Both the position numbers and the translations under genes were made by a program. The notes beneath the pieces are model-generated. The model had not been told where the DNA came from and searched no databases. It saw only the letters and a list, made by a program, of their open reading frames with translations. DNA of 64,000 nt from Desulfobacteraceae bacterium (GTDB taxonomy: Bacteria > Desulfobacterota > Desulfobacteria > Desulfobacterales > Desulfobacteraceae). Shown in pieces: positions 23,407 through 23,625 of the stretch (its first letter is position 1; every line of letters starts with the position of its first letter). Location of the stretch: positions 62,001-126,000 of the forward strand of contig JADGEQ010000014.1 in NCBI GenBank assembly GCA_016744295.1, given 5' to 3'.

Positions 23407-23625
23407 TTAATTAGGATACCGATCCCATTCAGCATAGTATCCTTCCATATCTGTTTTCATATTCTTCGCATCGGATAATGCCGCGGCATTGTAAGACCTT
23501 GCACGGTATTTAGAGAACTGCGGAATCGCAATTGCAGCAAGGATACCGATAATTGCAATAACAATCATGAGCTCAATCAATGTAAAACCTTTTTGATTTC
23601 TGTGTTTTTTTAGCCAATGATACAT
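23407..23625 (-). CDS. pilA: Type IV major pilin, very short (Geobacter PilA-N-like)
   Basis: QKG^[59 protein letters not shown]. Confidence 0.93.

Follow-up and report, generated by a model that had tools for sequence, protein, structure and literature searches.

The pilA-N gene (23407..23625, minus strand) of the Desulfobacteraceae window, by which we mean the whole 64,000-nucleotide stretch of DNA analysed here, very probably encodes the helical half of an ordinary split PilA-N/PilA-C type IVa pilus, with its partner encoded by the next gene. This interpretation draws on the gene structure, the homology of both halves, the conservation of the two-gene unit, the synteny and the machinery genes of the genome. 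The pilA-N prepilin has 72 residues, and cleavage at its G/F prepilin site would give a mature short type IVa major pilin of 59 residues, so that the open reading frame and the cleavage site both agree with the mature length in the initial annotation. The N_methyl domain (PF07963) is matched in Pfam with an E-value of 9.5e-13, Glu5 is present and the short mature form ends past the helix. In the alignment, F1, F24, Y27, Y32 and Y57 are all kept, the list of conserved positions for truncated pilins being that of PMC5174107. The closest PDB chain is 9egp_A (E 1.1e-25), from an entry identified by its PDB title as a type IV pilus of G. metallireducens solved by cryo-EM, and the next is 7tgg_A. 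The family is large, with 7992 of the 8000 scored candidates at an E-value of 0.001 or better; NCBIfam holds no specific name for the protein. Judged by its sequence, pilA-N is a Geobacter-type PilA-N and belongs as an ordinary member to a family already known; the earlier assignment to the Geobacter-type short pilins is borne out.

The gene is genuine. Its close relatives are equal in length, and the dN/dS values against six relatives are 0.02–0.16, which are approximate given that synonymous sites are near saturation. A pseudogene or a truncation in the assembly is excluded by these equal-length relatives, the low dN/dS and the intact reading frames; the ordinary truncated pseudogene, or the longer PilA, that the initial annotation had considered is thus not what the locus contains. 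A Shine-Dalgarno-like sequence, GGAGGTGA (23629..23636, minus strand), is read directly from the sequence just 5′ of pilA-N. No sigma-54 promoter was found directly 5′ of the gene at up to two mismatches.

The partner gene (22975..23343, minus strand) lies 63 nucleotides downstream of pilA-N on the same strand and encodes a 122-residue protein that begins with a signal peptide. The protein goes unnamed in Pfam and NCBIfam, its close relatives are few, and a direct profile search of the PDB with the window's own PilA-C family returned signal-peptide or chance matches only. Nevertheless, a chain of profiles together with the rank of its predicted fold leads us to identify it as the putative PilA-C half, an exported β protein corresponding to the globular part of the pilin. 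When the mature Desulfobacteraceae PilA-C family was compared with the Geobacter-type PilA-C family by hhalign, with the signal peptides removed from both, the score was 36.9, against 11.6 for the best of 50 column shuffles and 8.3 for the reversed profile. The Geobacter-type PilA-C profile itself hits two Geopilin domain 2 chains, 9egp_B (E 1.8e-20) and 7tgg_a. The AlphaFold model of the 122-residue protein has a pLDDT of 79.6 and a pTM of 0.68, and a Foldseek search with this model placed 9egp_B at the top among 350,542 PDB chains, with a probability of 0.87 and a weak E-value of 0.17. The adjacent gene therefore encodes, by this chain of comparisons, a probable homologue of PilA-C. Furthermore, the C-terminal parts of the full-length pilins that occupy the same slot in other genomes match both PilA-C groups (scores of 50.8 and 24.9, with shuffles at no more than 12.2), so that each of the two short genes is the counterpart of one half of a full-length pilin.

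The two genes appear to form one conserved unit. Every short pilin in the set of loci adjoins a same-strand open reading frame of about 106–169 residues, nearly all of these with a signal-like start. A rho-independent terminator (22904..22942, minus strand), a strong hairpin followed by a T tract 3′ of the PilA-C gene with a fold z of −4.86, closes the unit; a terminator-like site is found at the same position, at most 130 nucleotides past PilA-C, in 23 of the 28 loci, and between pilA-N and pilA-C in none of the 28. The stems vary from locus to locus, which suggests that it is the arrangement that has been kept. A simple terminator scan returned none here, probably missing a stem whose pairing extends into the T run, and the terminator was detected by folding and by a purpose-made scan.

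A comparison with the described two-gene systems places the window pilin close to that of G. metallireducens (9egp), with which it shares the 59-residue mature PilA-N, F1, F24, Y27, Y50, Y51, Y57, the YPN end and an adjacent partner gene, the model of whose product has 9egp_B as its best match. It differs in having Y32 for F32, W54 for H54 and R56 for F56; the PilA-C sequence is strongly diverged, and the downstream gene order of the Geobacter-type modules is unlike that of the window. The two-gene design is likewise that of G. sulfurreducens PilA (GSU1496) and GSU1497 (7tgg), from whose PilA the residues E5, R28, D39, K44, E48 and Y57 are kept (PMC5174107), whereas the window pilin is two residues shorter and has more aromatics. 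Altogether F1, E5, F24, Y27, R28, Y32, D39, K44, E48 and Y57 of the truncated-pilin positions of Geobacter are kept in the window, and R30 and E53 are conservative replacements of the typical K30 and D53. Truncated pilins of the same kind were reported in 2016 from Desulfobacula toluolica and Desulfobacter postgatei (PMC5174107), which belong to the same group of sulfate reducers. The D. toluolica relative P0106 is 70% identical to the window pilin; where the latter, with its YPN end, carries the tyrosines Y50, Y51 and Y57, P0106 has YF and F.

Does such a locus make conductive e-pili, or pili built of PilA-N and PilA-C? This was the question raised by the initial annotation, and it is the right one to put. 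The label of e-pilin chosen there, however, is not supported: it overlooked the adjacent PilA-C gene and appealed to an aromatic richness that is the family average. The aromatic residues are exactly as had been given: F1, F24, Y27, Y32, Y50, Y51, W54 and Y57. Y50 and W54 had been regarded as extra relative to Geobacter; Y50 is not extra, as G. metallireducens PilA has both Y50 and Y51 (PMC5241403), and W54 stands in place of His54 of that PilA. W54 is the usual residue among the Desulfobacteraceae relatives. The aromatic density, a check proposed at the same time, is 0.136 against a family mean of 0.135 and does not discriminate. In 139 short pilins, a set weighted to the close relatives of the window pilin so that its average is that of the pilin's own neighbourhood, the mean number of aromatics is 7.99, with at least eight in 81%, and the window pilin has eight. 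In 17 full-length pilins an aromatic is present at positions 1, 24, 27 and 57 in all, at 32 in 82%, and at 51 and 54 in 65%. Over residues 1–57 the short pilins have 7.77 aromatics versus 6.53 for the full-length ones, the surplus being mainly at position 50. Aromatic richness is a family trait, largely older than the split. Since the same positions are aromatic in same-slot full-length pilins and the count is average, the aromatics do not discriminate between the two kinds of filament. This corrects a common shortcut: a count of a short pilin's aromatics is no way to recognise a conductive pilus, and the better guide is the neighbourhood of the gene, in this case a PilA-C gene that forms one unit with pilA-N.

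We regard it as very improbable that PilA-N alone would form thin conductive filaments by means of its aromatics. The pilin does come close to G. metallireducens PilA, for whose pili 277 S/cm was reported (PMC5241403), in that eight of its 59 residues are aromatic, Y50, Y51, W54 and Y57 among them, and proponents argue for the existence of PilA-only e-pili (PMC9207759). However, that aromatic number is common to full-length pilins, the PilA-C gene is co-encoded with pilA-N, and the reported G. metallireducens construct itself had pilA-N and pilA-C together (PMC5241403). The literature is divided on the filaments, PMC9207759 being opposed by PMC12954529, in which cryo-EM gave PilA-N/PilA-C pili of 7–8 nm and assigned the 3 nm filaments to DNA. 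The genome, moreover, has only 19 open reading frames carrying at least four CxxCH motifs; HmcA and octaheme types are among those scanned, and three of the larger ones, searched against the PDB, had no match there, filament cytochromes included. Multiheme cytochromes are few in this genome, and extracellular electron transfer may still take place. As far as sequence can tell, the locus stands on the PilA-N/PilA-C side. One 11-heme cytochrome (L225:2022-4550) resembles ExtM of selenite/tellurite reduction operons, with a score well below the NCBIfam cut-off.

For the split pilin, we infer the pairing, the assembly, the type of filament and its role as follows. PilA-N, the helical half of the type IVa major pilin, would be cleaved by the prepilin peptidase and sit in the inner membrane in its mature form, while PilA-C, the globular half, would be the product of the second gene of the unit and be exported by its own signal peptide. 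The two would pair in the periplasm and polymerise to give a retractable pilus, tipped with minor pilins and PilY1, which would likely serve in adhesion, surface motility or secretion. In G. sulfurreducens, pili contain PilA-N and PilA-C in equal parts (PMC12954529). The pilA-N of the window is the only candidate for a type IVa major pilin in the genome, which also encodes PilB- and PilT-type ATPases, PilC, one prepilin peptidase and a PilQ secretin with PilP/O/N-like genes, PilP, PilO and PilN being named by size, order and reading rather than by family search. The window itself carries four minor-pilin genes (GspH/FimT-like, PilW, PilV-like and PilX; 40307..42579, plus strand) and, following these, the gene of the tip protein PilY1, which contains a VWA domain (42610..46263, plus strand; PF05567 with E 5.7e-22, and PF00092). 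By its predicted genes the genome holds most of a retractable pilus machine. A sigma-54-like site with one mismatch, TGGCATTGTTTTTGCA, lies at 40209–40224, about 80 bases before the minor-pilin and PilY1 genes, the frequency of such sites in the window being no higher than expected by chance. A sigma-54-dependent response regulator, possibly PilR, is encoded near PilY1 (46729–48165, minus strand), and an open reading frame of the size of a histidine kinase comes next after pilC elsewhere in the genome (C87).

It is also conceivable that, instead of a surface pilus, the pilin makes a short pseudopilus in the periplasm by which proteins are pushed out, a proposal to which we give little chance. 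PilA-N/PilA-C of G. sulfurreducens has been proposed to export OmcS and OmcZ (PMC10597711), and an ABC transporter is part of the conserved module around pilA-N. However, pseudopilins, a secretin and an ATPase are also encoded elsewhere in the genome, in a type II secretion-like cluster separate from this system, and the minor pilins, PilY1 and the PilT-type ATPases point to a surface pilus that is retractable.

Beyond the terminator, the module continues on the minus strand with four genes assigned by synteny: an ABC transporter ATPase (22136..22870; PF00005), an ABC-2 type permease (21327..22229; PF12679), a 283-residue protein matching no Pfam or NCBIfam model (20479..21330) and a 574-residue TPR membrane protein (18731..20455; TPR families). 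The open reading frame of the permease overlaps the ATPase gene, so its true start is probably internal. A divergent UbiA-type prenyltransferase gene, also recognised by synteny, flanks the module on the upstream side (24015..24893, plus strand). Across the phylum, parts of this ABC/283-residue/TPR/UbiA set go with both short and full-length pilins. Full-length pilins stand in this slot too, with the ABC and TPR genes next to them (L176–L181, L186, L188, L019 and L024), and the 283-residue protein is kept alongside the pilin module throughout.

In a tree of the ABC and 283-residue proteins, split and full-length modules interleave and short-pilin modules fall into two clades. A single clade is rejected with a p-AU of 0.016, a value that is approximate in that the groups were defined after the tree had been inspected, and no fewer than two changes of state are required; on this unrooted tree, gains look the same as losses, and splits the same as fusions. 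It is therefore possible, and we suggest it only tentatively, that the split state changed at least twice in Desulfobacterota, in the Desulfobacteraceae and in the Geobacter-type short-pilin clades, with full-length modules between them. If two independent splits did occur at nearly the same place, the split form would have been favoured repeatedly on grounds that have nothing to do with electron transfer of the Geobacter kind. The split-pilin locus of sulfate reducers also offers a test system outside Geobacter for the keeping of a pilin gene in two pieces.

By open-frame length, short pilins are present in 17 of the 89 genomes of the family. The five genus mates have neither a short pilin nor a close module. 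The module of the window is nested among those of another genus, represented by three genomes, and a grouping of those three without it is rejected with a similarly approximate p-AU of 0.013. HslU of the contig is 90–91% identical to that of the genus mates and about 80% identical to that of the three genomes with which the module nests. Given this nesting in another genus, the lack of the block in the genus mates and the grouping of HslU with the genus mates, the pilA-N/PilA-C/ABC/283-residue block (18731–23625) was likely acquired horizontally. Contamination of the contig is unlikely by this one marker, HslU being at most 86% identical elsewhere among near full-length matches. The flanking UbiA gene is closer to that of a third genus.
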